From: Geobacter sp.
Lineage (GTDB): Bacteria; Desulfobacterota; Desulfuromonadia; Geobacterales; DSM-12255
Direction of reading: 5' to 3'
NCBI GenBank assembly: GCA_009886125.1
Contig: VFJK01000003.1
Location: 1 to 49,766, forward strand
DNA: 49,766 bases
This document shows, in pieces, positions 5,096 to 40,499 of the stretch. Within the stretch, counting starts at the first letter, position 1. Every line of letters begins with the position of its first letter. The notes under the pieces are model-generated. The model had not been told where the DNA came from, did no database searches, and was given only the letters and a program-made list of their open reading frames with translations. The translations under genes were made by a program, and so were the position numbers.

Positions 5096-5109
5096 CAGCA
5101 GGGGGCGAT

Positions 5110-7424: not shown

Positions 7425-7444
7425 GAAACTGAAAAGGTAGGGAA

Positions 7445-11450: not shown

Positions 11451-11453
11451 AAA

Positions 11454-12800: not shown

Positions 12801-12828
12801 AAGCATCTGAAGTTCAGGATAGTAGCGT

Positions 12829-15092: not shown

Positions 15093-15107
15093 TACTGAGG
15101 TAATCAT

Positions 15108-16481: not shown

Positions 16482-16482
16482 G

Positions 16483-17379: not shown

Positions 17380-17527
17380 CGGCACGAACCGGTTCTCACT
17401 TCAACGCCTCTGCTTTTGCATCATTGCAGAATTTGGCCAGCTACCTGTAAGGGCACCCGGAGTGTCTGAATGTTACTGATGGCCCCGTGCCCCGGCTGTT
17501 TCCGTTCGATCCGGCTCGTGCCGTCAC
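17376..17527. repeat. 152-base element bounded by 17-base inverted repeats
   Basis: GTGACGGCACGAACCGG (17376-17392) and CCGGCTCGTGCCGTCAC (17511-17527) are inverted repeats with one mismatch. They enclose 118 bases with no open reading frame. The left arm contains the murB stop codon. No clear target-site duplication is seen at the ends. It may be a miniature transposable-element-like insertion or a long-range RNA stem before ddl. Confidence 0.6.
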
Positions 17528-17554
17528 TACCAAGGGTGATATGTGGGAGGATAC

Positions 17555-18466
17555 ATGAAAAACAGAAAAATCGGCGTACTGATGGGCGGGCTCTCTGCCG
17601 AGCGTGAAGTCTCCCTGAAAAGCGGGGCCGCTGTTCACAAGGCGCTGCTGGCAAGGGGATTCGATGCTGTCACGGTGGATGTCGGGCGCGATCTTTCAAC
17701 GCGACTTGGAGAGGAAAAGATCGAAGTCGCCTTTGTCTGCCTGCATGGACGCTATGGTGAAGATGGTGCGGTGCAGGGTCTTCTCGAGCTGATGGGGATA
17801 CCGTATACGGGTTCCGGAGTCCTTGCCAGCGCACTGGCGATGGACAAGATTTTTGCGAAAAAGATTTTTGCGGCAAGCGGTCTTACCATAACACCGTACG
17901 TTGTCTTTAAAAAAGGAGATGCTCCGGATCCGGCAAAAATCCTGTTCGGGTTCCCGGTTGTGGTGAAGCCTTCACGTGAGGGTTCATCCGTCGGCGTCAG
18001 TATCGTCAAGGCTGCCGAAGAGCTGTCCAAGGCTATGGAGAGTGCATTCTGCTATGACAACGAGATCCTGGTTGAAAAGTACGTCAAGGGGCGTGAGATC
18101 CAGGTCGGGATACTTGATGAGAAGGGGATCGGGGCGATAGAGATCGTTCCGAAAAACGAGTTCTACGACTTTGAAGCGAAATACACGGATGGAATGGCGA
18201 TACATATCATGCCTGCACCGCTTCCGGGTGATCAGTATGACGAACTGCTCAGGTCGGGTGAGATCGCACATGCAGTTCTCGGCTGCTCCGGATACAGTCG
18301 GGTTGACTTCATCGTCACAGAGGACAAAGAGGCGTATCTTCTGGAGGTCAACACCCTTCCGGGGATGACCTCCTTAAGTCTTCTGCCGGAAATTGCACAG
18401 CACGCAGGAGTTGGTTTCGAGGAGTTGGTGGAGAGGATTATCCGTTCTGCATCGCTCAAAATATGA
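17555..18466 (+). CDS. ddl: D-alanine:D-alanine ligase
   Basis: Ddl joins two D-alanines for use by MurF. It is an ATP-grasp enzyme. [18 protein letters not shown] at the N-terminus, [15 protein letters not shown] in the ATP-binding lobe, and [18 protein letters not shown] with the metal-binding residues at the end are all typical. Translation from ATG 17555 is chosen because GGGAGG lies five bases before it; a frame from GTG 17543 adds four residues only. Length is 303 residues. Confidence 0.96.
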
Positions 18467-18592
18467 GGGATAAAAAAGTTTTTTACGGGGCAGTTTCCAC
18501 TATAAACCGTGACTGATATATGCTATTTATTTTGAATAAAATGTACTGCGTGCAAGCGCGTCATTTATCAGGATGAAGCGCTTTCGGAGACT

Positions 18593-19414
18593 ATGCGCGA
18601 ACTTAACCTGAACAATCAAAAGCCGGCGACGAGAAACCGTTTCAAGAAACAACGGAAAAAGATCAGCTTCCGCGGTTTCCTGAAAAAAACTGTGCGAGTG
18701 GCAACTGCAGTTGTGGTAGTATCTCTTGTCTTTCTTGTCTGCTTTGAGCTGTACGGTTTTGTAGGAAAAACGACTTTTTTAAAGCTTGACCGGGTAGATG
18801 TTTCAGGCTTCAAGAAGCTTACCCGTGATGAGATCATGTCATCTGCCGCAGTCAAGATCGGCGACGATCTTCTCGGGCTCCGTCTCTCGCGGATGGGGGA
18901 GCAGCTGACGAAGAATCCCTGGATAGCATCGGTAAGGGTTCGGCGGAATTTCCCACACTCACTTTCGATTGATGTTGTTGAGCGGCAGCCGGTAGGTATA
19001 GTCAGTATGGGATACCTGTACTATCTTGACAGTCGCGGCGAGATATTCAAACCGCTTCAGGAGGGCGACAGCCTTGATTTCCCTGTTATCACCGGGCTTT
19101 CGGAAGATGATATTCTCAAGGACCCATCCGGGGCAAAAGAGACTCTGAAAGGAGTCCTTGCTCTGTTGCAGCATCTTCAGAAGGATAGATCCGGAGTCAG
19201 GCTGGCTGATATTTCCGAACTCCATTACGATAAGGGTTTCGGCTATACTCTTTTCACGACCGACCAGGGGCTGCCAATACGGCTTGGAACGAGCGGGTTC
19301 GATGAGAAGCTCGATCGTTTGTCAAGGGTCTACAGTGAACTTCAGCCTCAGATCCCGACACTTGAGTATATCGATCTGGATTACAACGACAGAATAGTGG
19401 TTAAAAAAACCTGA
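18593..19414 (+). CDS. ftsQ: Cell division protein FtsQ
   Basis: FtsQ is a bitopic divisome scaffold that binds FtsL and FtsB. A basic cytoplasmic N-terminus (about residues 1-33) leads to one membrane span (about 35-55). The periplasmic POTRA domain starts near FLKLDRVDVSGFKKLTRDEIM, and an FtsQ beta-domain follows with DVVERQPVGIV and YYLDSRGEIFKPL. Length is 273 residues. It is preceded by a 126-base AT-rich gap that could hold an internal promoter, though I see no convincing pair of boxes. GGAG (18585-18588) precedes the ATG. Confidence 0.92.
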   Translation: MRELNLNNQKPATRNRFKKQRKKISFRGFLKKTVRVATAVVVVSLVFLVCFELYGFVGKTTFLKLDRVDVSGFKKLTRDEIMSSAAVKIGDDLLGLRLSRMGEQLTKNPWIASVRVRRNFPHSLSIDVVERQPVGIVSMGYLYYLDSRGEIFKPLQEGDSLDFPVITGLSEDDILKDPSGAKETLKGVLALLQHLQKDRSGVRLADISELHYDKGFGYTLFTTDQGLPIRLGTSGFDEKLDRLSRVYSELQPQIPTLEYIDLDYNDRIVVKKT

Positions 19415-19470
19415 TGATGGCTGTCAAGCCAATCCATCCATAAAGCACACAGCTCATTTTGGGGGTATCA

Positions 19471-20709
19471 ATGTCTGGCAGAAGAGACAACCTGATTGTA
19501 GGTCTTGATATTGGAACGACGAAGATCTGCGCGATCGTCGGCAATCTTACCGAAGACGGTCTTGATATAGTCGGAATCGGGTCCAGCCCTTCGCACGGCC
19601 TTCGCAAAGGGGTCGTCATAAATATTGACAGCACGGTACAGTCGATACGAAAAGCGATTGAAGAGGCTGAACTGATGGCCGGCTGTGAGATAAAGAGCGT
19701 CTTTGCAGGCATTGCCGGCGGGCACATAAAGGGGATGAATTCCCAGGGTGTCATAGCCATAAAAAACCGCGAAGTCGCTCCAGATGATGTAAAGCGGGTC
19801 ATCGATGCGGCAAAGGCTATCGCAATACCTATGGACCGCGAGGTAATCCATATCCTGCCTCAGGAGTTCATCATAGATGATCAGGACGGCATCCGCGAAC
19901 CACTGGGGATGAGCGGCGTCCGTCTGGAGGCGAAAGTCCATATTGTCACCGGTGCTGCGGCAAGTGCACAGAATATTGTCAAATCCTGTAACCGTGCAGG
20001 CCTTGATGTCGCTGATATTGTGCTTGAACAGCTGGCATCTTCCGAGGCGGTGCTTTCAGCGGAAGAGAAAGAGCTGGGGGTCGCTCTCGTTGATATCGGC
20101 GGTGGTACTACCGATATTGCGATATTTGTCGATGGCGCGATCAAGCACACTTCCGTGCTCGCTCTTGGCGGGAACCAGTTGACGAACGACATAGCTGTCG
20201 GACTGAGAACGCCCATGGCTGAGGCTGAGAAGATCAAGCAGAAATACGGCTGCTGCCTCTCATCCATGGTCGGCAAGGATGAGACCATCGAAGTTCCCAG
20301 TGTCGGCGGCAGAAAACCCCGGATCCTTTCGAGGCAGCTTCTGGCGGAGATCCTTGAGCCCAGGGTGGAGGAGATATTCACGCTCGTCAACCGGGAGATC
20401 GTCAAGTCCGGATATGAGGATATGATCGCCTCCGGAGTCGTCATCTCCGGCGGGAGCACTATTCTGGAGGGTATGCCTGAACTTGCAGAACAGATCTTCA
20501 ACCTCCCGGTCCGCAGAGGTGGGCCGCAGAATATCGGCGGCCTTGTTGATGTCGTAAATTCGCCGGTCTATGCAACAGGCGTCGGACTTGTTATTTACGG
20601 CAGTCGGCATATTGATACTACGGCTCACTTCCCGACGAACCAGAGCGATGACAGCGTGTTCAGGAAGGTGAGTAGAAGGATGAAAGAGTGGTTCGGCGAA
20701 TTCTTTTAA
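19471..20709 (+). CDS. ftsA: Cell division protein FtsA
   Basis: FtsA is an actin-like ATPase that anchors FtsZ to the membrane. The phosphate-1 motif GLDIGTTKICAIVG is at the N-terminus. VDIGGGTTDIAIF forms the second phosphate loop, SGGSTILEGMPELAE the adenosine motif, and the C-terminal KEWFGEFF resembles the amphipathic membrane-targeting helix. ATG 19471 has GGGGG just upstream; a TTG four codons earlier is less likely. Length is 412 residues. Its stop codon overlaps the left end of a palindromic element. Confidence 0.96.
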   Translation: MSGRRDNLIVGLDIGTTKICAIVGNLTEDGLDIVGIGSSPSHGLRKGVVINIDSTVQSIRKAIEEAELMAGCEIKSVFAGIAGGHIKGMNSQGVIAIKNREVAPDDVKRVIDAAKAIAIPMDREVIHILPQEFIIDDQDGIREPLGMSGVRLEAKVHIVTGAAASAQNIVKSCNRAGLDVADIVLEQLASSEAVLSAEEKELGVALVDIGGGTTDIAIFVDGAIKHTSVLALGGNQLTNDIAVGLRTPMAEAEKIKQKYGCCLSSMVGKDETIEVPSVGGRKPRILSRQLLAEILEPRVEEIFTLVNREIVKSGYEDMIASGVVISGGSTILEGMPELAEQIFNLPVRRGGPQNIGGLVDVVNSPVYATGVGLVIYGSRHIDTTAHFPTNQSDDSVFRKVSRRMKEWFGEFF

Positions 20710-20835
20710 GGAGGAGCGCCACTTTTGCGCAATCTCGGCGTTGACGTTCGGAAGCTCCTTGTGCGACGTAGCGCTGCTACGTCTCCGCGGGCTCCCTCCG
20801 TCGCCTTGACCTTGCACAAAATTGACACTCCTTAA
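20706..20835. repeat. 130-base palindromic element between ftsA and ftsZ
   Basis: The ends are TTAAGGAG (20706-20713) and CTCCTTAA (20828-20835). The centre is GACGTAGC, a 3-base loop, then GCTACGTC. Partly matching arms in between (for example TTTTGCGCAA on the left and TTGCACAAAA on the right) make one long imperfect hairpin. The left end includes the ftsA stop codon. It looks like a mobile palindromic repeat rather than ordinary leader sequence. Confidence 0.65.
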
Positions 20836-20845
20836 AGCGCAAGCA

Positions 20846-20870
20846 GGTCGCTTCAGGAGAAGCGATGACC
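20846..20870 (+). promoter_or_regulatory. Hairpin in the ftsZ leader
   Basis: TCGCTTC (20848-20854) and GAAGCGA (20859-20865) form a perfect 7-base stem with loop AGGA, flanked by GG and ACC. The downstream stretch TGACCTTGCAGAAATTGA nearly repeats part of the right end of the neighbouring palindromic element. No T-run follows, so it is not a usual terminator; its role is unknown. Confidence 0.45.
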
Positions 20871-20925
20871 TTGCAGAAATTGATATCAGTTATATTTCAT
20901 CATAAACCGGGGAAGGGGGTGCGGT

Positions 20926-22083
20926 ATGCAGTTTGAGCTTGACCAAAGCATTGAGGTGACTGCAAAAATCAAGGTTGTCGGGGTTGGCGGAGGCGGAAGC
21001 AATGCGGTGAACACGATGATCGACAAACATGTCCATCATGTCGAGTTCATCGTTGCCAATACCGATGCGCAGGCTTTGAGAACCTCCAAGGCTCCGACAA
21101 AGGTTCAGCTTGGATCGATCCTGACCAAGGGGCTTGGTGCGGGGGCGGACCCCGGTGTTGGTCGCGATGCGGCGATCGAGGATCGTGAGCGCCTGATGGA
21201 GACGCTTCAGGGTGCCGATATGGTTTTCGTGGCTGCCGGCATGGGTGGCGGAACCGGTACCGGTGCTGCTCCGGTTGTTGCCGATGTTGCCAAGGAGCTC
21301 GGCGCTCTTACCGTCGGAGTCGTGACAAAGCCGTTCACCCGCGAAGGCAAGCGCCGCAAGGAGCAGGCTGAGATCGGTATCCGCGAACTGAAAAAGCATG
21401 TCGACTCCCTTATTGTCATCCCGAATGACCGCCTGATCGGACTTGCAGGGAAAAACACCTCGATCCTTGATGCGTTCAAGCCTTCTGATGATGTGCTCCG
21501 GCAGGCTGTCCAGGGGATTTCCGATCTGATTACCACTACCGGTATGATCAATGTCGACTTTGCCGACGTCAAGTCTATCATGAGTGTACGCGGGATGGCT
21601 ATAATGGGTATAGGTCTGTCGAGCGGTGATAACCGTGCCACTGAAGCAGCGACCGCAGCTATTTCGAGTCCGATTCTTGAAGATATCGACATCTCCGGTG
21701 CAAAGGGTGTCCTGGTTAACATCTGTGGTTCCTCAAGTATGACGATGGAGGAGTATGAGGTCGTCAGTCGTATTATTCACGAGAAGGTCCATGAGGACGC
21801 AAATATCATTATCGGTCTTCTTGTAGACGAAGAGCTTGGTGACAAGCTTAAGGTCACTGCGATTGCTACCGGCTTTGGTGACCGCTTTGACATGGAAAAG
21901 GGGAAAATCGAGAAGGTTACAAAGCTTCAGGATGTAGCGAGAACCAATCTCGATACTCCTACCTTTGTCCGCAACAGCGGGCAGGATCAGCGCAGGTCCT
22001 CGGTTGTCAAACAGTCAAGCTTCTCGATGGATGAGGATGATCAGTATGATATCCCCACTTTCCTTCGCAAATCGGTAGACTGA
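20926..22083 (+). CDS. ftsZ: Cell division GTPase FtsZ
   Basis: FtsZ is the tubulin-like GTPase that forms the division ring. The N-terminus has [13 protein letters not shown], the tubulin signature [11 protein letters not shown], and the T7 loop [12 protein letters not shown] short C-terminal linker leads to the conserved peptide [11 protein letters not shown], which binds FtsA. Length is 385 residues. The start ATG follows a G-rich ribosome site (AAGGGGGTG). It is the last dcw gene here and is followed by a hairpin. Confidence 0.98.
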
Positions 22084-28866: not shown

Positions 28867-28895
28867 TTGACACTGGCAAGACAATGACTTATTGT
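28867..28895 (+). promoter_or_regulatory. Promoter of the Ehr-type operon
   Basis: TTGACA (28867-28872), a 17-base spacer and TATTGT (28890-28895) form a strong sigma-70 promoter 41 bases before the first gene of the cluster. It lies in the 140-base divergent gap with ligA. Confidence 0.7.
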
Positions 28896-28935
28896 TCACG
28901 AAATCGATGCATACCAGCACTACCGGAGTTCTGAA

Positions 28936-29610
28936 ATGTTTTTGAAAATTGTTGACGTCGTATCATCACTTGGTCTTGATGAGAAAACAGTCCTTGGCTG
29001 GATAAAGAAAAAGGGCCTGCCGGCACATCAGGTGAATGGACGGTATCAGATCAATCAGGTTGACCTGCTGGAGTGGGCTACTGACAATGGAATAACAATC
29101 CCTCCGCAGATGTTTGCGGTTCCTGATTCTGAAGACAAGCTCCCCCTGCTTTCCGGAGCACTTGTCAGGGGGGGCATCAACTTCGACGTGCCTGGAGACG
29201 ATTTGCAGTCGGCGCTGAGGAGCGTTGTGGAACGTCTGCCGCTGCCCGAGCATATGGATCAGGATTTTCTCTTCCAGACCCTGCTTGCCAGGGAAGCTCT
29301 GGGAAGCACCGCCATCGGCCACGGCATTGCCATCCCTCATGTGCGAAACCCGATACTATCACAAGCTCAGGACCCTGCCGTCAGCCTCTGTTTTCTCAGA
29401 AAGCCGATCGACTTCCATGCGCTTGATGACAAGCCGGTTCATATTCTCTTTACCCTGATTACCCCCAACGTTAAAGTCCATCTGCATATGCTGGCCAGAT
29501 TGTCCTATATGCTTCATGAACAACGATTTATGGAACTGCTCAACAGCACCCCTGGCACAGATGAGATCATTGCCATGGTGACGGAGTTGGAGGATCGTAT
29601 CAGGAGGTAA
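28936..29610 (+). CDS. HTH-PTS EIIA(Ntr)-like regulator
   Basis: Residues 1-55 form an excisionase/MerR-type helix-turn-helix (VVSSLGLDEKTVLGWIKKKGLPAHQVNGRYQI). A linker leads to a PTS EIIA type-2 domain at about residues 75-224. The phosphorylatable His is in HGIAIPHVRNP, and the substrate-binding loop and RLSYMLHEQRFMELL helix are present. Such proteins take phosphate from a PTS-Ntr chain and act as regulators rather than sugar transporters; DNA binding is inferred. It is the first gene of the cluster, only six bases before the next gene, so it probably controls the membrane complex or is controlled with it. Confidence 0.82.
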   Translation: MFLKIVDVVSSLGLDEKTVLGWIKKKGLPAHQVNGRYQINQVDLLEWATDNGITIPPQMFAVPDSEDKLPLLSGALVRGGINFDVPGDDLQSALRSVVERLPLPEHMDQDFLFQTLLAREALGSTAIGHGIAIPHVRNPILSQAQDPAVSLCFLRKPIDFHALDDKPVHILFTLITPNVKVHLHMLARLSYMLHEQRFMELLNSTPGTDEIIAMVTELEDRIRR

Positions 29611-29616
29611 CAGATC

Positions 29617-31620
29617 ATGATCGGAGAAGTTTTCTCCTCTGGAACAATCCTTATCATTGCAACCATCTGTGCCGCACTCTCCGGACTGCCCATGATAGTG
29701 CCCCGTGTTCCGGCTGTGACGGGGCAGGTAGTTTCAATAGTACTTATGCTGATTGCTGCGCTGGCAGGAATCGGCGCTGCAATCACTGTGCTTGTCACGG
29801 GTCGTGCCGAGCTTTTTGTGATCCCCTGGACCCTCCCCTTCGACAACTGTGTATTAGGAGTCGATCCCCTCTCTGCCTGGTTTCTGCTGCCGATCTTTCT
29901 GATCCCCGGATGTGCTGCCCTTTATGCCCGGACATACTGGCATGCCAGGCACAACCCGGCTAATGTCCGTAAAATGACCTTCTTTTTTGGCTTGCTGACC
30001 GGCGCCATGAGCGCTGTCGTTCTTGCCCGCGACAGTATCTCGTTCCTGTTTGCCTGGGAGATCATGGCGACAGCGGCCTATTTCCTGGTCTCGACCGAGG
30101 ACCAGAAGAAGGAAGTCAAAGAAGCCGGAACGCTTTACATGATAACCACCCATATCGGCACGTTGGGACTGTTCGCCCTCTTTCCGCTGCTGAATCTGTA
30201 TACCGGTTCCTGGCTTTTTCCGGCCGCCGCTTCGCTGAATGCTTCTTCACCCATTGCAACAGCGCTGTTTCTTACCGCTCTTTTCGGTTTCGGGATGAAG
30301 GCGGGGATCATGCCGTTACACATCTGGCTCCCTTCAGCTCACGCCAGTGCCCCCAGTCACGTCTCAGCTGCCATGTCGGGAGTCATCCTCAAGGTTGGTA
30401 TCTACGGACTTGTCCGGACCCTTACGTTCTTCCACGGCGTACCGCTCTGGTGGGGCTGTTTCGTGCTCCTTCTGGGGGTAGTTTCCGGCGTTGTCGGGGT
30501 AGCTTTTGCCATCGGGCAGCACGATCTGAAGCGGCTATTGGCATATCACAGCATAGAAAATATCGGTATCATCTTTATGGGGATTGGTGTTGCGCTGGTC
30601 GGTCAAACTACCGGTTCATCTGCCATGATGATGCTCGGCATGGCTGGGGCGCTACTGCACGTTCTAAATCACGCTACCTTCAAGGCGCTCCTTTTTCTCG
30701 GCGCAGGATCGGTCATCCATGCCAGCGGCACTCGCGAAATCGACCAGTTAGGGGGCGTTGCCCGCCGTCTGCCCTATACGGCGCTCCTGTTTGGAGTCGG
30801 TGCAGTGGCGATCTGCGGACTGCCGCCCCTCAACGGTTTTATCAGTGAATTCCTTATTTATCTCGGTTTTTTCAGAGGGGTCCAGGGCACAGGGATTGCC
30901 GCCGCTGCAACTGCCCTGGCAGCTCCTGCTCTTGCTATGGTCGGTGGTCTGGCAGTGGCCTGTTTTGTCAAGGTCTACGGGATCGTTTTTCTGGGTGTTC
31001 CGCGTAGCGAAGAGCATGCCGGTGGGCATGAGGCCACCTGGCAGATGCTGATGCCCATGACGCTGTTGGCTATGCTCTGCGCTGTTATTGGACTTGCTCC
31101 CGGTCTCTTGGAAGGTGCGTTGCAGCAGGCCAGCATGACGGCAATGCCGGCAATTCTACAAAAAGGAGTGCAGCCTCTGGCTGCACTGGTGCCTCTGCCG
31201 CTACTTACGATAATGGGGATCACTCTGCTTATGCTGCTGGCATTGTTATATTTCTGGTACCGATATCGGCTGACAACTTCACCGGTGGGAGAAACAGTCA
31301 CCTGGGGGTGCGGTTATCAGCGGCCACTTGCGCGAATGCAGTACAGTGCATCATCTTTCGCTCAGATGTTGACCGGACTCTTTGCCTTTGTTCTCAAACC
31401 GCAGGCTCATAGGCCGCGCATCGCGGGGATATTTCCTCGTCGCACCAGTTTTCAGAGTCACGTTCCTGAGTCCTTACTGGAATTGGTGTATATTCCTGCT
31501 CTTGAACGCTTCTATGAACGCTTTATTCCGATTCGCAAATTGCAGAACGGAATCCTGCAGCAGTATGTACTGTATTATCTCATTACCTTGATTGTGCTGT
31601 TCTTGAGCGACAACTTCTAA
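29617..31620 (+). CDS. HyfB/NuoL-like proton-channel subunit, copy 1
   Basis: The 667-residue protein is a polytopic antiporter-like subunit of the Complex I / group-4 hydrogenase superfamily, with about 14-16 membrane spans. The conserved proton-path residues are in place: a membrane Glu in AWEIMATAAYF and a Lys in [27 protein letters not shown]. The broken-helix region LKRLLAYHSIENIG follows. The C-terminal part ends with [17 protein letters not shown], a HyfB/HycC-type feature. It starts six bases after the regulator. The best comparison is HyfB/HycC; it is a clear paralogue of the gene at 32994. Confidence 0.88.
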   Translation: MIGEVFSSGTILIIATICAALSGLPMIVPRVPAVTGQVVSIVLMLIAALAGIGAAITVLVTGRAELFVIPWTLPFDNCVLGVDPLSAWFLLPIFLIPGCAALYARTYWHARHNPANVRKMTFFFGLLTGAMSAVVLARDSISFLFAWEIMATAAYFLVSTEDQKKEVKEAGTLYMITTHIGTLGLFALFPLLNLYTGSWLFPAAASLNASSPIATALFLTALFGFGMKAGIMPLHIWLPSAHASAPSHVSAAMSGVILKVGIYGLVRTLTFFHGVPLWWGCFVLLLGVVSGVVGVAFAIGQHDLKRLLAYHSIENIGIIFMGIGVALVGQTTGSSAMMMLGMAGALLHVLNHATFKALLFLGAGSVIHASGTREIDQLGGVARRLPYTALLFGVGAVAICGLPPLNGFISEFLIYLGFFRGVQGTGIAAAATALAAPALAMVGGLAVACFVKVYGIVFLGVPRSEEHAGGHEATWQMLMPMTLLAMLCAVIGLAPGLLEGALQQASMTAMPAILQKGVQPLAALVPLPLLTIMGITLLMLLALLYFWYRYRLTTSPVGETVTWGCGYQRPLARMQYSASSFAQMLTGLFAFVLKPQAHRPRIAGIFPRRTSFQSHVPESLLELVYIPALERFYERFIPIRKLQNGILQQYVLYYLITLIVLFLSDNF

Positions 31621-31689
31621 CTATTCAAATATGCCAGAGCATACAGTTATCCAAAAGTTGCGCAGTTCATATCTTCAGGAGGCAGCGCC

Positions 31690-32772
31690 ATGAGCCCGAC
31701 AGGCAATATTAATGAGCAACCAATAGCGAGCCGCATAAACTGGGTTTTAGATCTGGCGCAAAGATACTCGGCTGAGTTCTGTTCCCCGGAGGCCTTCCTG
31801 GCCAGAGAGCGGTACCTTGCGCTGCATCCGACAGCCATTGCCGTTATGAAATGTATGGACGGCCGCATCAACATCCCGGTAGCGACAAAAACACCCCCCG
31901 GAATTATTCAGCCCTTCCGTAACCTTGGAGGAATGTTTGATATGGGCTGGCCCCATCTTGGTGAGGTGCTGGCCCAGTATGTTCAACGCATGATGAGAAG
32001 TGGCCGGCGGGTCCTGATTCTGATCACCTACCACTTTTCACGCGGTGATGTCCACCGGGGCTGTTCCGGCTTCGGCTGCGATACTGACGCGGCGATAGCC
32101 CACACTCAACAGATTCAGAGGCAAATGGAGGCTATTTTCGGTGCTGCACACGACAGCGTCTACCCACTTATATGCGGCTTCGAAACTGACGAGGATGCAC
32201 TGCTGCTGCACAGTTCAGATGGCAGGATTCTGGATCTGTCTGCCGACATATCAGTAGATCAGCTTAGCGCAGAGCTGGCGCAGCGTTTCTATGACATGCC
32301 CAACGAGATGCGGAGTGACCTTCTGCCGCTGCTGGCTGGCAATCTTTCCCACATCGAGAGATTGCGTCAGGAGCGTCGTGCTCTTATTGTTGAACACCGT
32401 GAATGGATGATTTGTCTGGGACGTGGGTTCGACTTCCTTCATACCCCCAATCTGGCATTGATCATAGGGCCATACAGTCCCAACCTTTCCGATCCGATCC
32501 GTAAGGCTGCGTCAATCATTGAAAGCAATATGGCAGCCGGGAGGATTCCCGACGACGGGTTTCTGCTGCTTGCTTCAGTACCGTATGACGAAATAGGGGT
32601 TGACCGTGCCCGTGCAGAGATGAAATCACATTTCCTTTCCATGTTTGCTGCCGAAGTGATAGAGCGGGAGTTTCCTGATCTGGCCGGGAAAATGATCCGG
32701 AGGACTGCGGTCCTCGACTGGAATTCACGCAGGATCGAGGCGCTCTCTGAGCCGGGCGGCGTCAGCTTTTGA
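31690..32772 (+). CDS. CsoSCA-like (carboxysome-shell type) beta-carbonic anhydrase
   Basis: The 360-residue protein carries the beta-class carbonic anhydrase core: CMDGR at 55-59 gives the zinc Cys and the catalytic Asp-Arg pair, FRNLGG follows, and TYHFSRGDVHRGCSGFGC holds H115, H122 and C125. The YHFS-to-GC spacing and a later GFETDEDALLLH segment resemble the carboxysomal CsoSCA enzyme, where zinc is bound by Cys, His and Cys. The C-terminal half lacks a second CxDxR site. No carboxysome shell or RuBisCO gene is in the window. It lies between two HyfB-like genes in a probable energy-converting operon. The fold call is fairly firm; CO2 hydration activity is inferred. Confidence 0.72.
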   Translation: MSPTGNINEQPIASRINWVLDLAQRYSAEFCSPEAFLARERYLALHPTAIAVMKCMDGRINIPVATKTPPGIIQPFRNLGGMFDMGWPHLGEVLAQYVQRMMRSGRRVLILITYHFSRGDVHRGCSGFGCDTDAAIAHTQQIQRQMEAIFGAAHDSVYPLICGFETDEDALLLHSSDGRILDLSADISVDQLSAELAQRFYDMPNEMRSDLLPLLAGNLSHIERLRQERRALIVEHREWMICLGRGFDFLHTPNLALIIGPYSPNLSDPIRKAASIIESNMAAGRIPDDGFLLLASVPYDEIGVDRARAEMKSHFLSMFAAEVIEREFPDLAGKMIRRTAVLDWNSRRIEALSEPGGVSF

Positions 32773-32889
32773 AAGCGCCTGATGAGTGCATCTCACACCG
32801 TTCCATCGGGGAATAGAAAAACCTGTATGAAAAATTGTGCGGCACCGCTTAAGTTGCAAAATAGCTGCTCAAAAAATAACAGTTTTCTA

Positions 32890-32918
32890 TTGACACACAT
32901 ATAGCTCAGGTTCACTAT
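32890..32918 (+). promoter_or_regulatory. Possible internal promoter before HyfB-like copy 2
   Basis: TTGACA (32890-32895) is perfect, but the -10 region CACTAT (32913-32918) at 17 bases is poor. It lies in the 221-base gap after the carbonic-anhydrase gene, the largest gap in the cluster. Confidence 0.35.
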
Positions 32919-32993
32919 CTAGTGGCGTTGGCGGATAGTCAGGCCGTTCATTTCGCTTCCTCATTAGCCATTCATCCCAAGGAGTCAATTTCG

Positions 32994-34988
32994 ATGTATT
33001 CTGCTCTGCAGGATGTGTGTGATCCTGCAATCGTGGCGATAATCGCCGCGCTATTTATCGGCTCAGCCGGCATCCCCGGTCTTTTCCTCAGGCCCGGTCC
33101 CGGACAGATGATCGCCACCGTTACGACGATACTGGCATCACTGGCCGGTCTTCCTGCAGCGTTGGCTCTTCTTTTTGCCCCTGCGACGTCGACCTTTGTC
33201 CTTGCCTGGGAGCTGCCGTTCGGCCCGTGTGAACTGGCAATAGATCCGTTGTCCGCCTTCTTTCTGCTGCCCATCTTTCTTGTCACTGCTACAGGCTCCC
33301 TGTTTGCCCTTGGTTACTGGCCGGCAGCCACTCATCGTTCCACTGAAAGAGGCCTGACGTTCTTCTACGGTCTCCTGGCCTCGTCAATGGCACTCCTGGT
33401 CATGGCCCGCAACGGTGTATTCTTCCTGATGGTCTGGGAGGTTATGGCTCTTTCCGCTTACTTCCTTCTGGTTACGGAGCACGGACGTGAGGATGTCCGG
33501 CGCGCCGGGACGGTCTACCTGATCGCCACCCATACCGGCAGTGCAGCCCTGTTTGTCTTTTTCTCTCTTTTAGCCGGCCAGACCGGCTCGTTTCTCCTGC
33601 CGGCCAGCGGCTCACTTTCGGCGCTTCCGCCTGTTGCACTGGCCATTGGCTTGACCGCATTTGCCGGTTTCGGTGCTAAGGCCGGTATCATGCCGCTACA
33701 TATCTGGCTCCCCTCGGCACATGCCAATGCCCCGAGCCACGTCTCGGCTATGATGTCCGGCGTCATGCTGAAGATGGGGCTCTACGGAATATTCCGCACT
33801 CTGACTTTTTTCCACGATCCTCCGCTTGTATGGGGTGCATTCCTGACCGTGACCGGCATCACTTCAGCCCTTCTGGGGATCGCTTTTGCAGTTGCCCAGC
33901 GTGATCTGAAGCGGCTGCTGGCCTGCAGCAGCATCGAAAATATCGGTATCATAACTACCGGCCTCGGTGTTGCCATGCTCGGAGTCTCCAGCCACAACCC
34001 ACCTCTGGCTTATCTGGGGATGGCGGGTGCTCTGCTGCATATCCTCAACCATAGTTTTTTCAAACCGCTCCTCTTTCTCGGCTCCGGGGTCATCATTCAC
34101 GCCACCGGTACCCGGGAGATGAATCTGATGGGGGGACTCGGTAAAGAGATGCCTCGCACGGCACTCCTTTTTCTGGTCGGCTCGGTTGCTATCTGCGGCA
34201 TTCCACCCTTGAACGGCTTTGTCAGTGAATTTCTGCTGTATCTCGGCTTCTTTTCACAGCTGCAGGCGACAAGCATGCCGTATATCGTGCTGCTGGCGCC
34301 TTTACTGGCGCTTGTCGGCGGGTTGGCGATGATCGCATTTACCAAGCTGTACAGCTCGGTCTTCCTCGGTGCAGCACGGAAACCCGGGGCAACTCATCCA
34401 CACGAAGCCGCTCTGACGATGCTCCTGCCGATGGGCATTTTTGCCCTGCTCTGCCTGACCATCGGACTGGCGCCGCAGCTTGCCCAGCGGCTGGTTTCAC
34501 CTGCCCTGGCGGCATTCATGCCGGCGATGGCACGGTCAATAGATCCGGCTGAATATATGTCGATCCTGGGAAGGCTTTCACTGTTCGCGATTTTGCTTCT
34601 GCTGGTCGCGTTTCTGCTCACTCTCTTCTTGCGGTGGCGTCTCCGGCAGTCCGAAGTTACTGCGGCGCCGACCTGGGGCTGCGGTTACCAGCGGGCTACG
34701 GCGCGGATGGAGTATACTGCCACCGCGTTTTCCGAACTCGCTGTTTCGGTTTTTAACGGGATCATACGACAGCGGATCGAACGACCTGCCTTGACAGGGA
34801 TATTCCCCTCTGCGGCACGTTGTAATGATCTGCCGACGGAAACAGTTCTCGATCGGATCATTGTGCCGCTGTTTAACCTTGCCGGTCCGTCGTTTGCCTT
34901 TTTACGGCGACTCCAGCACGGCCAGATGCATGTCTACATGCTCTATATCTTTGTCACACTGTTTATTCTGATGCTCTGGGCACATTGA
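32994..34988 (+). CDS. HyfB/NuoL-like proton-channel subunit, copy 2
   Basis: This second antiporter-like subunit matches the copy at 29617 along its length. The Glu segment [19 protein letters not shown], the Lys segment [58 protein letters not shown] and the C-terminal [17 protein letters not shown] are all shared. ATG 32994 has AAGGAG nine bases upstream and gives 664 residues; an upstream GTG at 32922 adds residues that do not look like a membrane start. With the HyfF-like gene this makes three antiporter-like subunits in one cluster. Confidence 0.88.
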
Positions 34989-34999
34989 AAAATGCAAAT

Positions 35000-35107
35000 T
35001 ATGAATTTAGAATTATGAATGTTGAAATAACATCAAAGGCCTCCATAAGGTACGTGGCAAGCCATGTCGGCTTTTCATTCATAATTCAACATTCATAATT
35101 CATAATT
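35000..35107. repeat. AT-rich inverted repeat between membrane-subunit genes
   Basis: GAATTATGAATGTTGAA (35010-35026) and TTCAACATTCATAATTC (35085-35101) are perfect 17-base inverted repeats, and the motif AATTATGAAT is also repeated directly on both sides. The 58 bases between arms contain a small GCC/GGC hairpin. It fills most of the 128-base gap and resembles dispersed AT-rich palindromes seen in other bacterial genomes. Confidence 0.65.
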
Positions 35108-35116
35108 GAGGTATAT

Positions 35117-36025
35117 ATGACAAACATCCTCATCCATCTGCTTCTGGCCATCTTCATGCCGCCGCTCTTATTGGGGGTGATCGGCAAGACCAAGGCTGCC
35201 TTTGCCGGCAGGATCGGCGCGCCCTTTCTCCAGCCGTATTACGACATCTTCCGCTTGCTGCGCAAAGGGACGGTCTTCAGCACCACGACGACCTGGATAT
35301 TCCGGGCCGGGCCGATCGTCTCCCTGGCGACAACTGCGGTCGCCGCGCTCCTGATCCCGTTCGGTGCTCATCCGGCACCCATTTCCTTTCAGGGAGACAT
35401 GATCCTCTACGCCTACCTGTTTGCCCTTGGGCGGTTTTTTACGATGGCAGCAGCCCTTGATACCGGCTCCAGCTTCGAGGGGATGGGGTCGGCCCGTGAA
35501 GCGACCTACTCCTGCCTGGCTGAACCGACCCTCTTTTTTGCGTTGATCACCCTGTCACGGCTTTCCGGCTCCTATTCACTCTCTGCGATGCTGATCAAAG
35601 TCAGCTCATCGATCTGGCTGGAAGCCGGAGCTGCCTTGATCCTGCTTGTGGGAGGCATGTTCATCGTCCTGCTGGTTGAAAACTGCCGGATCCCGTTTGA
35701 CGATCCGAACACACACCTGGAGTTGACCATGATTCATGAGGTGATGGTGCTTGACCACAGTGGCCCGGCATTTGGCCTGATCCAGTACGGCGCAAGCCTC
35801 AAACTGTTTGTGCTGGGAGCATTTTTTGTCCATCTGGCACTTCCGTATGCGACCGGCACCCCTTCTGTCGACTGGTTGCTTTTCATAATCTCCATGCTCG
35901 AACTGGCCGTTATTATCGGCACGGTCGAGTCAGTCATGGCTCGCCTCAGACTGGTGCGGATCCCACAACTGCTGGTAGCTGCCACTATCCTGGCGGCATT
36001 TTCCACACTGCTGGTCATCAGGTGA
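35117..36025 (+). CDS. HyfC/HycD-like membrane subunit (NuoH family)
   Basis: The 302-residue protein is the NuoH-like membrane subunit that contacts the hydrophilic arm and forms the quinone- or ferredoxin-side entry of the proton path. Family segments include FAGRIGAPFLQPYYDIFRLLRKG, an Arg/Glu-bearing loop SSFEGMGSAREATYSCLAEP, and ENCRIPFDDPNTHLELTMIHEVMVLDHSGP, which is highly characteristic of group-4 hydrogenases. About eight membrane spans are visible. It follows the repeat element and precedes the HyfE-like gene by four bases. Confidence 0.9.
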   Translation: MTNILIHLLLAIFMPPLLLGVIGKTKAAFAGRIGAPFLQPYYDIFRLLRKGTVFSTTTTWIFRAGPIVSLATTAVAALLIPFGAHPAPISFQGDMILYAYLFALGRFFTMAAALDTGSSFEGMGSAREATYSCLAEPTLFFALITLSRLSGSYSLSAMLIKVSSSIWLEAGAALILLVGGMFIVLLVENCRIPFDDPNTHLELTMIHEVMVLDHSGPAFGLIQYGASLKLFVLGAFFVHLALPYATGTPSVDWLLFIISMLELAVIIGTVESVMARLRLVRIPQLLVAATILAAFSTLLVIR

Positions 36026-36029
36026 CCCT

Positions 36030-36671
36030 ATGATAACCATTGCCGATCAATTACTGGTGCTTGTCCTGCTGATCAACTTCATTTCCCTGGGGACGAGCCG
36101 CCTGATGTTCTCTATCCGGGCTGTTGCCGCGCAAGGCGTCATCCTGGGGATACTCCCGGGGCTCATCCACCCCTTTTCCTGGCATCTGGTCGGGATTACC
36201 GCCGGCATAATCGCTATCAAGGGGTTTATTATCCCGCTGCTGCTCAATCGCGCCGTCCGTTCGGCCGAGATCAAGCGCGAGGTGGAACCTTTTCTCGGTT
36301 ATGTCCCCACCCTGCTGCTGGGAGCGCTCTTTACCGCGCTTTCCTTCGGTTTTGCCAGTAAACTGCCGCTCCTTCCCGAACACCAGCATTATATGTTCGT
36401 GCCTGCATCCATTGCGACGCTTATGGCCGGATTCCTGATCCTGACGACACGCCGAAAGGCTATTTCCCAGGTCATCGGTTATCTGGTGCTGGAAAACGGC
36501 ATCTTCATATTCGGCCTGCTGCTGGCCGATGCCATGCCGATCATGGTCGAGGCTGGAGCTCTCCTTGACCTCCTCGTAGGCACTTTTGTCATGGGAATCG
36601 TAATCAACCACATCAGTCGTGAGTTTTCCTCGCTGGATACTTCACGGCTGACCTCTCTGAAAGAGGAGTAG
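36030..36671 (+). CDS. HyfE-like hydrogenase-4 membrane subunit
   Basis: The 213-residue protein has about six to seven membrane spans and the HyfE pattern, with a NuoK-like C-terminal part: VIGYLVLENGIFIFGLLLADAMPIMVEAGALLDLLVGTFV, including a buried Glu in the ENG segment. N-terminal spans contain LVLLINFISLGTSRL. It sits 4 bases after the HyfC-like gene and 4 bases before the HyfF-like gene, so the three are tightly coupled. Confidence 0.85.
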   Translation: MITIADQLLVLVLLINFISLGTSRLMFSIRAVAAQGVILGILPGLIHPFSWHLVGITAGIIAIKGFIIPLLLNRAVRSAEIKREVEPFLGYVPTLLLGALFTALSFGFASKLPLLPEHQHYMFVPASIATLMAGFLILTTRRKAISQVIGYLVLENGIFIFGLLLADAMPIMVEAGALLDLLVGTFVMGIVINHISREFSSLDTSRLTSLKEE

Positions 36672-36675
36672 TTAC

Positions 36676-38109
36676 ATGCTTGCTGCCCTGATATTTCTGC
36701 CGCTCATCGGCGCTTTAGCGACCTGGCTGATCCGTTCCGATCATCTGCGTCCCATGGTATTGTCTCTTTTTGCCCTGGGGCATCTGGGCATAACTTTTCT
36801 GCTTTTGATAGATACCCCGCCTGAGTCTTTAGGCGGCTGGTTTCATCTGGATGCCCTCGGCAAGATCGTCCTTTTGAGCACCAGCATCCTCTTCCTGTTT
36901 TGTGCCGTCTACTCGATCGGTTACCTGGCGTATCGCCAGGAGCGCTCGAACCGGGTGCTCTGTGTCGGTCTGCTCATCTGCCTGTCTGCCGCCTCGATGG
37001 TGACCATCACCCACCATCTGGGACTCATGTGGGTGGCTCTGGAGACCACGACCATCTCCATGGCGCCACTGATCTATTTCAATCGGAATGCCCGCTCGAT
37101 CGAAGCGACCTGGAAATATCTGCTGATCTGTTCCGTCGGGGTTGCCCTGGCCTTGATAGGGCTCTATTTTCTTGCCTACGCCACTATTGTAGCCAAGGTA
37201 GAGCCGTCACTGCTGCTGGACGACCTGATGCGCGATGCTGGCCAGCTCTCCTCCGGCTGGGTGCATGCCGCATTTGTCTTTCTGCTGGTCGGATTTGGTT
37301 CCAAGATGGGGCTGGCTCCGCTTCATACCTGGAAACCGGATGCGTACGGCGAGGCACCGGGACTGGTCGGCGCCATGCTGGCAGGTGGCTTGGTAAATCT
37401 GGCATTTCTAGCCCTGCTGCGCGTGTATCAGCTCTGTCTTGCCACGCAGGAGATCGCGTTTTTTCAGAATGCACTGGTTGTCATGGGTCTGATCTCCATG
37501 CTCTTTGCTGCTGTCTTTATGGCTCGTCAGGCAGACTTCAAGCGGATGCTTGCCTATTCGAGTGTCGAGCATGTCGGTATCATGGCGGTTGCGCTCGGTA
37601 TCGGCGGCAAAGCGATCTTCGGCGCGCTCTTTCATATCCTGGCAAACGGCCTGACCAAAGGAGTTCTGTTCCTCTCTTCCGGCAATATTCATCGGTCCTA
37701 CAACAGTAAGAGCACCGATCACGTACGTGGCGCCCTGCGCCGTCTCCCCTGGTCCGGCGGGTTGTTCCTGGCCGGATTCATCGCCATTACCGGAGCTCCT
37801 CCGTTTGCACCCTTTATCAGTGAATTCACCATCGTCAGCAGCGCTTTTATTCAAGGGCGGATGCTTGTCGGGGCGCTCTTTCTGATCTCGCTGGCAATCA
37901 TCTTTATCGGCATGGCGCTGACGGTCCTGCCGATGGTAATGGGGGATATCCCGGAGGAGAGCGAAAAGACCTCGTATCGTGACTCCTTTTTGACAGTCGG
38001 CCCGCCGCTGGTCCTGCTGCTCCTGGTTTTCCTGCTGGGTGTCTGGATCCCGCAGCCCCTGATGGACCTCCTTCGCGAGGGAGCCGCCTTGCTGGAGGTG
38101 CCGAAATGA
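36676..38109 (+). CDS. HyfF-like proton-channel subunit (NuoM/NuoN family)
   Basis: The 477-residue protein is the third antiporter-like subunit. The span MWVALETTTISMAPLIYF carries the conserved Glu, FGSKMGLAPLHTWKPDAYGEAPG carries the Lys and is the typical HyfF form, and FKRMLAYSSVEHVGIMAVALGIGG follows. About 13-14 membrane spans fit the length. It overlaps the large-subunit gene by four bases (ATGA). Confidence 0.9.
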   Translation: MLAALIFLPLIGALATWLIRSDHLRPMVLSLFALGHLGITFLLLIDTPPESLGGWFHLDALGKIVLLSTSILFLFCAVYSIGYLAYRQERSNRVLCVGLLICLSAASMVTITHHLGLMWVALETTTISMAPLIYFNRNARSIEATWKYLLICSVGVALALIGLYFLAYATIVAKVEPSLLLDDLMRDAGQLSSGWVHAAFVFLLVGFGSKMGLAPLHTWKPDAYGEAPGLVGAMLAGGLVNLAFLALLRVYQLCLATQEIAFFQNALVVMGLISMLFAAVFMARQADFKRMLAYSSVEHVGIMAVALGIGGKAIFGALFHILANGLTKGVLFLSSGNIHRSYNSKSTDHVRGALRRLPWSGGLFLAGFIAITGAPPFAPFISEFTIVSSAFIQGRMLVGALFLISLAIIFIGMALTVLPMVMGDIPEESEKTSYRDSFLTVGPPLVLLLLVFLLGVWIPQPLMDLLREGAALLEVPK

Positions 38110-39623
38110 AGAAACTACTGACTCCTCTGCACAACGGTTCATCGATACCGCTTGCCAGGCTTCCTGTGACCGGCAATGATCCCTTTTTTCAGGGGATACT
38201 GGACGCGGTCGACAGCAGCTGGCGCGTCTCTTCCTACTTCGGGGTGCCCCAAGGCAGTGACGTCGAGCTGTATTGCGTGCTAGCTTCCAAGGCGGACGGG
38301 ACAATCGGTGTTGTCCGGACCAAGGTCACAAATACATTCCCCTCTCTGGCAGAGGTCTGCCCGCAGCTGCATCTTTTCGAACGGGAGATTGCCGAGCAGT
38401 GCTTCCTTACGCCTGAGGGGCACCCCTGGTTGAAGCCGGTCAGGTTCCAGCGACCCTTTGGACAGGAGCGCTCTTATTGGCACCACCTTGACGGCAACGG
38501 ACTGCTGCCCGGAGTCATGCCCTATTATCAGGTTGAGGGGGAAGAGGTCCACGAAGTGGCTGTCGGGCCGGTTCATGCCGGTGTCATCGAACCGGGGCAT
38601 TTCCGCTTCCAGTGTCATGGCGAGGAGGTTTTCAGCCTTGAGATCTCGCTCGGATTTCAGCACCGCGGCATTGAACGGGCACTTATCGGCGGGCCGTATA
38701 CGCAGACGATGTATCAGATGGAAACGATTGCCGGAGACACCAGTATCGGCCATGGTCAGGCTTACTGCATGGCCATGGAAGCTCTTGCCGGATGTCGCGT
38801 TCCTCCGCATGCCGAAGTGGTGCGCGGCATTGCTCTTGAACTTGAGCGGTTGGCAAATCATGCCGGTGATCTGGGGGCGATTGCGGGAGATGTCGGCTAT
38901 CTTCCCACTGCGTCGTTTTGCGGCCGGATCCGCGGTGATTTTCTCAACATGTCCTCGGTCATCTGCGGCAGTCGATTCGGCAGAGGGGTTGTCCGCCCCG
39001 GGGGCGTCGGTTTTGCGTGCGGGAAAAGTCAGGCCGATGAACTGCTTGGCCGGCTGGAAGCAGCTCGCTCTGATCTGGAGAACGCCGTTGAACTGCTCTG
39101 GAGCACTCCGTCAGTCATGGCCCGTCTGGAGGATGTCGGGATTGTGACAGGCGATACTGCCCGCGAAATTGCCCTGGTCGGTCCGGCAGCCCGAGCCAGC
39201 GGTTTAAATCGGGATGTGCGCCGGGATCACCCCTTCGGCATATTCCGGATGGGCCAGATCCCGGTAGTTACCGCGCAGTCAGGAGACGTCTATGCCCGGA
39301 CACTGCTCCGCTGGCTGGAAGCGGAACGGTCGATGAACTTTATCGCGGAACAGCTTCATCAGCTGCCGGCAGGGGGAACCCTGGCAGCTCCCGGCAACCT
39401 TGCCGCAAACAGTCTCGCCGTTTCCCTGACCGAAGGGTGGCGGGGGGAGATCTGTCATACGGCGATTACCGATGAGGTCGGTCGTTTCAGTCGTTACAAG
39501 ATCGTCGACCCCTCGTTTCACAACTGGCAAGGGTTGTCACTGGCACTGCGAGGTCAGCAGATATCAGATTTTCCACTCTGTAACAAGAGCTTCAACCTGT
39601 CGTACTGTGGTTTTGATCTTTAA
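38106..39623 (+). CDS. HyfG-like large subunit without Ni-Fe ligands (Ehr type)
   Basis: The 505-residue protein fuses a NuoC-like N-terminal domain (about 1-130) to a NuoD / hydrogenase-large-subunit domain. In true group-4 hydrogenases two CxxC motifs bind Ni-Fe. Here the first site reads ETIAGDTSIGH (206-216) and the second DPSFHNW (468-474), with no cysteine pair in either. The C-terminal PLCNKSFNLSYCGFDL resembles NuoD and energy-converting-hydrogenase-related (Ehr) subunits. It therefore should not make or use H2; the redox partner is unknown. It overlaps the HyfF-like gene by four bases and is followed by a repeat-rich gap. Confidence 0.87.
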   Translation: MKKLLTPLHNGSSIPLARLPVTGNDPFFQGILDAVDSSWRVSSYFGVPQGSDVELYCVLASKADGTIGVVRTKVTNTFPSLAEVCPQLHLFEREIAEQCFLTPEGHPWLKPVRFQRPFGQERSYWHHLDGNGLLPGVMPYYQVEGEEVHEVAVGPVHAGVIEPGHFRFQCHGEEVFSLEISLGFQHRGIERALIGGPYTQTMYQMETIAGDTSIGHGQAYCMAMEALAGCRVPPHAEVVRGIALELERLANHAGDLGAIAGDVGYLPTASFCGRIRGDFLNMSSVICGSRFGRGVVRPGGVGFACGKSQADELLGRLEAARSDLENAVELLWSTPSVMARLEDVGIVTGDTAREIALVGPAARASGLNRDVRRDHPFGIFRMGQIPVVTAQSGDVYARTLLRWLEAERSMNFIAEQLHQLPAGGTLAAPGNLAANSLAVSLTEGWRGEICHTAITDEVGRFSRYKIVDPSFHNWQGLSLALRGQQISDFPLCNKSFNLSYCGFDL

Positions 39624-39710
39624 ACCCCTCCAAACCTCCCCTTGTCAAGGGAGGCTTAGAAGCTTCCCCCCTGACAAGGGGGGATTGAGGGGGGTTGGAT
39701 TTAGAAGGAT
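39622..39710. repeat. C-rich/G-rich double-hairpin repeat
   Basis: Directly after the large-subunit stop come CCTCCCCTTGTCAAGGGAGG (39635-39654) and CCCCCCTGACAAGGGGGG (about 39666-39683), two neighbouring hairpins, then TTGAGGGGGGTTGG. Its right half matches the murG insertion (14476-14513) in order: TTCCCCCCT, a short loop, AGGGGGGA, TGAGGGGGG, ATTT. It fills most of the 114-base gap before the small-subunit gene and could affect the transcript as a partial terminator or stabiliser. Confidence 0.75.
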
Positions 39711-39737
39711 TTAGATTTCTCCCGAACGGAGTTAATT

Positions 39738-40499
39738 ATGTTTAGAGCGATTCTGTCCAGGCTGAAACAGGGGCACCGCACCATGCCCTATCCGAAGGAG
39801 CCGGTGCAGCTGCCGGAACATTTCCGCGGCTACCCGGAGTTGTCCCCCCGGCTTTGCACAGCTGACTGCAGCGAATGCGCCGCGAGCTGTCCTTTTGGCG
39901 CCATCTCCTGTACAGGCGGACTTTCCCTTGATTTGGGAAAATGTCTTTTCTGCGCCGATTGCGGAGCGGTTGACAAAGGGCTCGTCCGCTTTACCCGGGA
40001 TCATCGGCTTGCGGCGAGCAGTCGTGCAGAGCTTGTCGTCAGGGCTGATTCTCCAAGGCCACTGGCTCGTCCCCTCGACAAGAAAAGACTCTCTCTGTTC
40101 AGCCGCTCCCTGAAGCTGCGGGAGGTCAGTGCCGGCGGTTGCAATGCGTGCGAGGCTGACACCAACGTGCTTGCAACAATCGGCTGGGACCTCGGGCGTT
40201 TCGGTATCCAGTTTGTTGCCTCGCCACGTCATGCCGACGGGATCTGGGTGACCGGGCCGGTTACGGAAAACATGCGTGAGGCACTTCTGATGACCTATGA
40301 GGCGATCCCTTCCCCGAAGATCGTCATTGCCTGCGGCGCCTGTGCCATCAACGGCGGTCCCTTCCAGGGTTCCAGGGAAGCGGGCAGCGGCGTAGACGGG
40401 CTCCTCCCGGTGGATCTCTACATCCCGGGCTGCCCGCCACACCCGGTCACTATCCTTGACGGGATCCTTCGGGCGCTTGACAAGATTCCCTCTCCCTGA
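39738..40499 (+). CDS. HyfI/NuoB-like small subunit with N-terminal ferredoxin domain
   Basis: The 253-residue protein combines an iron-sulphur ferredoxin-like N-terminal part with a NuoB-like domain. In the first part C40, C44, C47 and C51 precede P, then C69, C72 and C75; the usual final CP of a second cluster motif is missing. The NuoB-like domain keeps proximal-cluster ligands: C135 and C138 (GGCNACE), C199 and C202 (ACGAC), and C232 (PGCPPHP). It should carry electrons to the large subunit. It is the last gene of the Ehr-type cluster; the rpsU promoter begins 35 bases later. Confidence 0.88.
   Translation: MFRAILSRLKQGHRTMPYPKEPVQLPEHFRGYPELSPRLCTADCSECAASCPFGAISCTGGLSLDLGKCLFCADCGAVDKGLVRFTRDHRLAASSRAELVVRADSPRPLARPLDKKRLSLFSRSLKLREVSAGGCNACEADTNVLATIGWDLGRFGIQFVASPRHADGIWVTGPVTENMREALLMTYEAIPSPKIVIACGACAINGGPFQGSREAGSGVDGLLPVDLYIPGCPPHPVTILDGILRALDKIPSP

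Follow-up and report, generated by a model that had tools for sequence, protein, structure and literature searches.

A CsoSCA2-type carbonic anhydrase gene recurrently placed directly behind HyfB1 in Ehr clusters of Geobacter and its relatives

Why does a carbonic anhydrase (CA) gene lie inside a gene cluster for a membrane complex related to hydrogenases and complex I? This question is raised by a window of 49,766 nucleotides (nt), the whole stretch of DNA analysed here, from Geobacter sp. (assembly GCA_009886125.1, contig VFJK01000003.1, positions 1 to 49,766; contig C16 of a 3.57 Mb genome). In this window, the gene of a soluble CsoSCA2-type beta-carbonic anhydrase (31690..32772, + strand; PF20686, CsoSCA_cat, 9.6e-8) lies between the genes of two antiporter-like membrane subunits, HyfB1 (29617..31620, +; PF00361 5.5e-53) and HyfB2 (32994..34988, +; PF00361 8.5e-48), of a cluster whose sequence identifies it as that of an Ehr (energy-converting hydrogenase-related) complex. 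We found that the linkage between the CA gene and Ehr is real and recurrent. Papers are cited below for particular passages, and statements about them apply to those passages.

Linkage of the CA gene to HyfB1

Within the order, the CsoSCA2 gene was found in 15 of 141 genomes. It lay directly behind HyfB1 in 15 of 15, with 22-109 nt between the match edges and no inserts. HyfB2, in contrast, was at least 1 kb from the CA gene, or outside the stretch examined, in 9 of the 15 genomes, whereas HyfB1 and CA were separated in none; the difference gave a Fisher p of 7e-4, which is a guide only because the genomes are related. In genomes G479 and G491, the EIIA, HyfB1 and CA genes were on another contig than HyfB2-C-E-F-G. 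The preliminary description of this DNA had allowed that homologous Ehr clusters might never carry the CA gene; the counts showed that they do, and its assignment of the gene to the Ehr locus was borne out both by this constant position and by a canonical beta-CA occupying the slot in two other genomes. Neighbour counts here and below cover one order, one class sample and 80 of 140 relatives.

Replacement of CsoSCA2 by an unrelated class of CA is the strongest evidence that the link exceeds chance. Genomes G492 and G493 have no CsoSCA2, and a canonical beta-CA of 202 residues (with CSDSR and HYGCGG) fills the slot between HyfB1 and HyfB2 (loci L164 and L166, reverse complement, about 5067-5673; two relatives in total). 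Another beta-CA gene stands about 245 bp before HyfB2 in G434, on the same strand and behind a longer insert, and in G287, G416 and G443 a beta-CA gene lies about 545-620 bp behind the small-subunit gene, again on the same strand. A beta-CA gene was thus beside Ehr on the same strand in at least 6 genomes of four lineages; G455 is outside this count; there the gene follows the small subunit of its second Ehr cluster at a distance of about 1.35 kb. For the 288 PF00484 matches found in 126 genomes, the chance expectation was 0.5-0.6 for the same strand and 0.9-1.2 for either strand. Estimated after the cases had been seen, P was about 1e-5 to 4e-5 for 6 genomes and 0.001 to 0.003 for 4 lineages on the same strand, and 0.0004 to 0.0014 and 0.016 to 0.03, respectively, on either strand. 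These cases, which come from PF00484 matches, are a lower bound.

The genes around HyfB1 were compared across relatives. An HTH-EIIA protein was matched at E <= 1e-20 in 100 of the 141 genomes, and an EIIA gene followed by a HyfB-like gene within 700 bp was present in 89 fetched loci. Behind HyfB1 in these 89 loci, the larger + strand clusters were HyfB2, HyfC, HyfE, HyfF, HyfG or CA; three further + strand clusters (13-15 loci) had no known-gene match and are probably antisense frames of a reverse-strand cytochrome module. That module, with cytochrome, ferredoxin (iron-sulfur) and NrfD-like genes, was seen by eye in the HyfB1-HyfB2 gap of L178 and similar loci (16 loci). Also by eye, the gap held an opposite-strand pair of small genes with the look of a MazF/PemK-type toxin and its antitoxin in L163, L170 and L177, and prohibitin/AAA-like genes in L165. 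Many relatives have HyfB1 without CA, and in CA-free L161 and L172-L174 the distance from HyfB1 to HyfB2 was only 150-190 bp. In six other CA-free loci (L184, L187, L190, L191, L197 and L169), a second Ehr cluster, about 36% alike, sits directly behind HyfB1. Because a second cluster can take this position, EIIA-HyfB1 is a separable unit.

In a wider scan, 140 relatives of the CA were found and 80 loci kept, some of them on short contigs; neighbourhood gene calling recovered the CA in 86 of 92 loci. The arrangement of the window's branch (Ehr1) was present in 13 of the 80, with HyfB1 directly upstream of CA in 13 of 13. The remaining 67 included two loci that adjoin a second Ehr branch (Ehr2) and three that adjoin DAB-type operons. 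In L095 (294-11041), CsoSCA2 accompanies a second-branch Ehr cluster headed by a SulP permease gene, and in L091 it is convergent with a second-branch cluster. Both loci are from betaproteobacteria, with two RuBisCO large-subunit matches in each genome. L326 carries CsoSCA2 100 bp behind the Ehr2 small subunit. In L036, L063 and L064, a DabA gene and NuoL/M-like genes lie close to CsoSCA2 on the other strand, with DabA identified by Pfam in L064 only and L036 and L063 grouped with L064 by sequence clustering. A LysR-type regulator gene also stands beside CsoSCA2 in L063.

In the CA tree, the Ehr1-linked genes formed one clade with full support (14 rows, of 15 genomes), which points to one capture. 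Three changes account for the three Ehr2-linked genes, and starred branches force two of these; for all Ehr-linked rows together the number is four, L095 and L326 being on long branches. On this tree, the Ehr2-linked genes of L095, L091 and L326 occupy separate places.

Identity of the CA and of the complex

The window's CA is a CsoSCA2, a known family of carboxysomal-CA relatives outside carboxysome loci, and its nearest named relatives come mostly from Geobacteraceae metagenome genomes. CsoSCA2 proteins (csoSCA alone) are described as widespread outside carboxysome loci, with a short N-terminal part and all catalytic residues (PMC9164163). In the window's protein, the first strand of the catalytic part begins at residue 48 and the N-terminal part has ~40 residues, as in CsoSCA2. 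The zinc ligands of CsoSCA are Cys173, His242 and Cys253 (PMC12646314), and these positions align with C55, H115 and C125 of the window's CA. Together with D57 and R59, these residues were invariant in 95 of 95 CA rows (82 distinct), the rows left after 9 of 103 CA matches had been dropped as short or containing a stop and the window's copy had been added. We take D57 and R59 to be the Asp/Arg pair of the CsoSCA catalytic site. An AlphaFold2 model of the CA (mean pLDDT 83; residues 80-88 poor) aligned with CsoSCA at Z 27-29 over 329-340 residues, spanning residues 2-358, and Foldseek gave E 1.2e-14 or better; judged from this near full-length model alignment, a second, defunct CsoSCA2 domain would be present. 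No transmembrane stretch was found in the CA (top 19-residue hydropathy 1.09, no segment >=1.6). Its codon positions 1, 2 and 3 differ by 8%, 6% and 43%, which indicates purifying selection. A special surface was sought on the Ehr-linked CAs, and only six clade-specific columns, in no pattern, were found. A link to RuBisCO was rejected for the window's genome (G000) because no large subunit was found there. This result and the absence of a shell protein from the cluster's nine genes place the CA outside carboxysome loci. When 30 other genomes with CsoSCA2 were picked from the relatives scan, RuBisCO was present in 19.

The identity of the complex was read from its large subunit. The HyfG-like protein (38106..39623, +) combines a weak NuoC-like start (PF00329 3.3e-4, just under the cut-off) with a NuoD-like part (PF00346 5.9e-37). 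In alignment with HycE, the VCGIC stretch is IAGDT in the window's protein, and the C-terminal stretch DPCYSC, whose last letters are as we assume them to be in HycE, is NLSYCG; both nickel-holding cysteine pairs are replaced. An ending near DFPLxNKSFNxSYxGxD is common to nine aligned HyfG proteins of two branches. Missing CxxC motifs are the published mark of Ehr complexes (PMC10432482, PMC4378227). The label "Ehr-type" in the preliminary description is therefore correct, because the HyfG-like subunit is without the [NiFe] cysteines. HyfG at >=58% identity, the Ehr of the window's branch, was present in 118 of the 141 genomes by our count of the matches listed; any HyfG match was obtained in 139, complex I NuoD-like proteins included. 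Among solved structures, HyfG and HyfB1 come nearest to subunits of formate hydrogenlyase (7z0s).

The Hyf/complex-I-like subunits B, C, E, F, G and I are all present together in the cluster, whose nine genes lie on the + strand and match the families earlier named for them in Pfam or NF profile searches. HyfB1 has 14 hydrophobic segments, and its E148, within FLFAWEIM, aligns with the Glu of HycC and MbhH; the usual lysine-bearing motifs are kept. HyfB2 is in a frame open from 32922, its start (about 32994) being placed by the alignment of relatives. They are followed by a HyfC/NuoH-like subunit (35117..36025, +; PF00146 1.8e-33), a HyfE-like subunit (36030..36671, +; NF008556 7.4e-20, under its curated cut-off) and a HyfF-like antiporter subunit (36676..38109, +; NF005044 2.4e-96, under the curated cut-off; PF00361 2e-46). 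HyfC through HyfG are tightly packed, with few bases between neighbours. The expected HyfI-like subunit was found as an iron-sulfur small subunit in which a HyfH-like part is fused to a HyfI-like part (39738..40499, +; PF01058 1.8e-26; N-terminal match to the formate hydrogenlyase iron-sulfur subunit NF009053 3.3e-15).

The first gene of the cluster encodes a PtsN-like regulator with HTH_17 and phosphotransferase EIIA domains (28936..29610, +; PF12728 4e-8; PF00359, PTS_EIIA_2, 3.7e-26). Upstream of it, a promoter-like site TTGACA-17-TATTGT (28867..28895, +) agrees with the consensus at 10 of 12 positions, as a pattern match only. The preliminary description had one promoter leading into the whole cluster. 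The site itself was found, but its singleness was not, as an equal 10/12 site occurs at 34985, between HyfB2 and HyfC. A single promoter is possible and unproven because 15 sites were found where shuffled sequence gave 6.7. Three promoter-like sites at 34985-35106, one at 10/12 and two at 9/12, could start the downstream Ehr genes separately. No promoter-like site from the scan falls in the spacer between HyfB1 and CA (69 nt) or in that between CA and HyfB2 (about 221 nt). Elsewhere in the window, 4082-22083 holds ordinary genes of the cell wall and of cell division (MraW, transpeptidase, Mur ligase, MurB, Ddl, FtsQ, FtsZ), followed by genes that encode proteins of the radical SAM and GGDEF-PilZ types.

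Weighing of the explanations

We consider it probable, with some reserve, that an Ehr operon recruited a soluble CsoSCA2 CA directly behind HyfB1, that this placement is functional, and that the enzyme is an accessory CA co-expressed during CO2-assimilating, formate-type growth. Co-transcription, the Ehr reaction and the physiological role are the parts of this explanation that we infer. Ehr would exchange low-potential (ferredoxin-like) electrons with some partner, and its three antiporter-like subunits would move protons or sodium. The complex would be made during CO2 assimilation, as on formate, and would then supply or consume low-potential electrons. The co-expressed CA would at that time equilibrate CO2, bicarbonate and protons, and ferredoxin-dependent carboxylations (using CO2) and pyruvate/phosphoenolpyruvate carboxylation (using bicarbonate) could thereby run. 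The CA might also buffer local proton release or uptake, with the PtsN-like HTH-EIIA protein as the switch through which phosphotransferase status would control the unit.

Several observations weigh against this explanation. CsoSCA2 is absent from 103 of the 118 Ehr-bearing genomes of the order, so the CA is not required for Ehr, and the HyfB1-HyfB2 gap is in part an insertion site, since unrelated inserts occur there in relatives. Among the loci seen, CsoSCA2 genes are mostly away from Ehr. When Ehr2 loci were drawn regardless of CA (40 loci from the 43 other genomes with a match, 369 being searched; G563, G569 and G622 left out), CsoSCA2 was present in 1 of 40 (L326), some of these loci being cut by contig ends. 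A PF00484 CA at E <= 1e-30 also occurs, among the matches listed, in 9 of the 15 CA-positive genomes. The chance estimate for beta-CA beside Ehr, as stated, followed the sight of the cases. The CO2-fixation role is borrowed from G. sulfurreducens, and for the authors who studied that species the formate effect may reflect a connection of Ehr with both formate dehydrogenase and H2 production (PMC7894505).

The same inserts (toxin-antitoxin-like genes, the AAA/prohibitin-like pair and the cytochrome/iron-sulfur module) suit the view that a housekeeping CA came by chance into a gap open to insertion and stayed because the promoter suited it, with no functional tie to Ehr. The single clade of the Ehr1-linked genes is in line with this view, as are the lineage-based P values for either strand. 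So are 6 of the 15 CA-positive genomes, where CsoSCA2 may be the main CA because no PF00484 CA at E <= 1e-30 was among the matches listed. Against chance stand the second CA class in the same slot with the further beta-CA-beside-Ehr lineages of the order, the CsoSCA2 genes beside Ehr2 at separate places of the tree together with the report from Acidithiobacillus caldus (below), and the fact that no insert parts HyfB1 from CA in any of the 15 genomes. We therefore regard chance as unlikely. A reading that we think somewhat less likely than chance is a vectorial CA, one that binds the Ehr membrane arm at HyfB1 and draws its drive from ion flow or redox, as in DAB and the cyanobacterial CO2-uptake NDH-1 complexes but on a hydrogenase-like module. 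The tie of the CA to HyfB1 and not to the rest of the complex, seen on the separate contigs of G479 and G491, would fit it, as would the CsoSCA2 genes adjoining DAB-type operons and the suggestion that CsoSCA2 may join other enzyme complexes (PMC9164163). However, the CA has no transmembrane stretch, HyfB1 retains the glutamate of transmembrane helix 5 (TM5) that is replaced in DabB2 and is found without CA in many relatives, and six clade-specific substitutions are all that mark the Ehr-linked CAs. Moreover, since an unrelated, ordinary beta-CA can fill the CsoSCA2 slot, a shared activity is likelier than a shared binding surface or a dedicated vectorial subunit.

A more specific form of binding, to which we give slightly less credence still, would make HyfB1 and CA a two-part module, co-transcribed under the PtsN-like switch, in which antiporter-like ion flow drives or gates CO2 hydration; it would have arisen apart from DAB and the cyanobacterial NDH-1 and taken its catalytic part from the lineage of the carboxysomal CA and, at some loci, from canonical beta-CA. 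It is very improbable that the complex is a true hydrogenase, of the group 4 [NiFe] or formate hydrogenlyase kind, with the CA removing formate-derived CO2. Its nearest solved structures (7z0s) and the proposed tie of Ehr with formate dehydrogenase and H2 (PMC7894505) speak for it, but the nickel ligands are gone with both cysteine pairs, neither CxxC motif is kept, and no formate dehydrogenase is among the cluster's nine genes; this candidate was rejected. We thus prefer a soluble CA tied to Ehr by function alone over a bound subunit, and an accessory CA over a DAB-like vectorial one because an ordinary beta-CA can stand in.

Ehr complexes and CsoSCA2 are both widespread and without known function, and a recurrent, exchangeable CA ties them to inorganic carbon. 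Other bacteria have several times independently brought a CA next to a pump of this kind, which provides a testable clue to both functions. If it is true that the CA is bound and driven, this would add another way for a machine resembling complex I to handle CO2 and bicarbonate.

Comparison with known systems

The locus resembles DAB2 (DabA-DabB) in that a NuoL-like membrane subunit gene stands beside the gene of a protein with a beta-CA fold. DabA2 has a transmembrane finger and misses a transition-state residue, and DabB2 is without the TM5 glutamate (PMC13144422); the window's CA, in contrast, has no such finger, and its HyfB1 keeps the glutamate. The CA had no match to the DabA family PF10070, and DabA was found in none of the 11 genomes tested, including the window's own. 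Membership in DAB was rejected because of the missing PF10070 match, the CA without a transmembrane segment and the TM5 glutamate kept in HyfB1. The preliminary description had likened the cluster to DAB and to the Cup-bearing NDH-1 complexes as a third, independent assembly. The vectorial part of this proposal was not supported in view of the soluble CA, the glutamate and usual lysines of HyfB1, the many Ehr clusters of the order without CA and the exchange of CA class, and the claim of a third assembly was too strong given two published systems. In plant mitochondria, a CA-fold module likewise sits on the membrane arm of complex I; that domain is of the gamma class and belongs to a true complex I (PMC7447434). 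In A. caldus, the island GIAcaTY.4 was reported in 2013 to carry hyfBCEFG immediately adjacent to a beta-CA gene, as in the window, and a role in pH and CO2 homeostasis was proposed; that report concerns one species and reads its cluster as an H2-evolving hydrogenase (PMC3826726).

In the literature searched, where subscription journals were mostly uncovered, no further report of an Ehr/Hyf-CA link, a Dab-hydrogenase link or an Ehr-linked CsoSCA was found beyond that on A. caldus. The CsoSCA2 paper itself differs from our account in that "hydrogenase", "complex i" and "nadh dehydrogenase" occur 0 times in its main text (PMC9164163). The Ehr of G. sulfurreducens (GSU0739-0745), whose role is described as never investigated, shares with the window the NuoL-like EhrA-1, the HyfE-like EhrC and the large and small subunits, and differs in that the passage naming its subunits includes no CA (PMC7894505). 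All of its subunits were more abundant with formate than in hydrogen-containing conditions, and the organism is reported to grow chemolithoautotrophically with CO2, on either formate or hydrogen (PMC7894505); both points speak for the explanation that we prefer.

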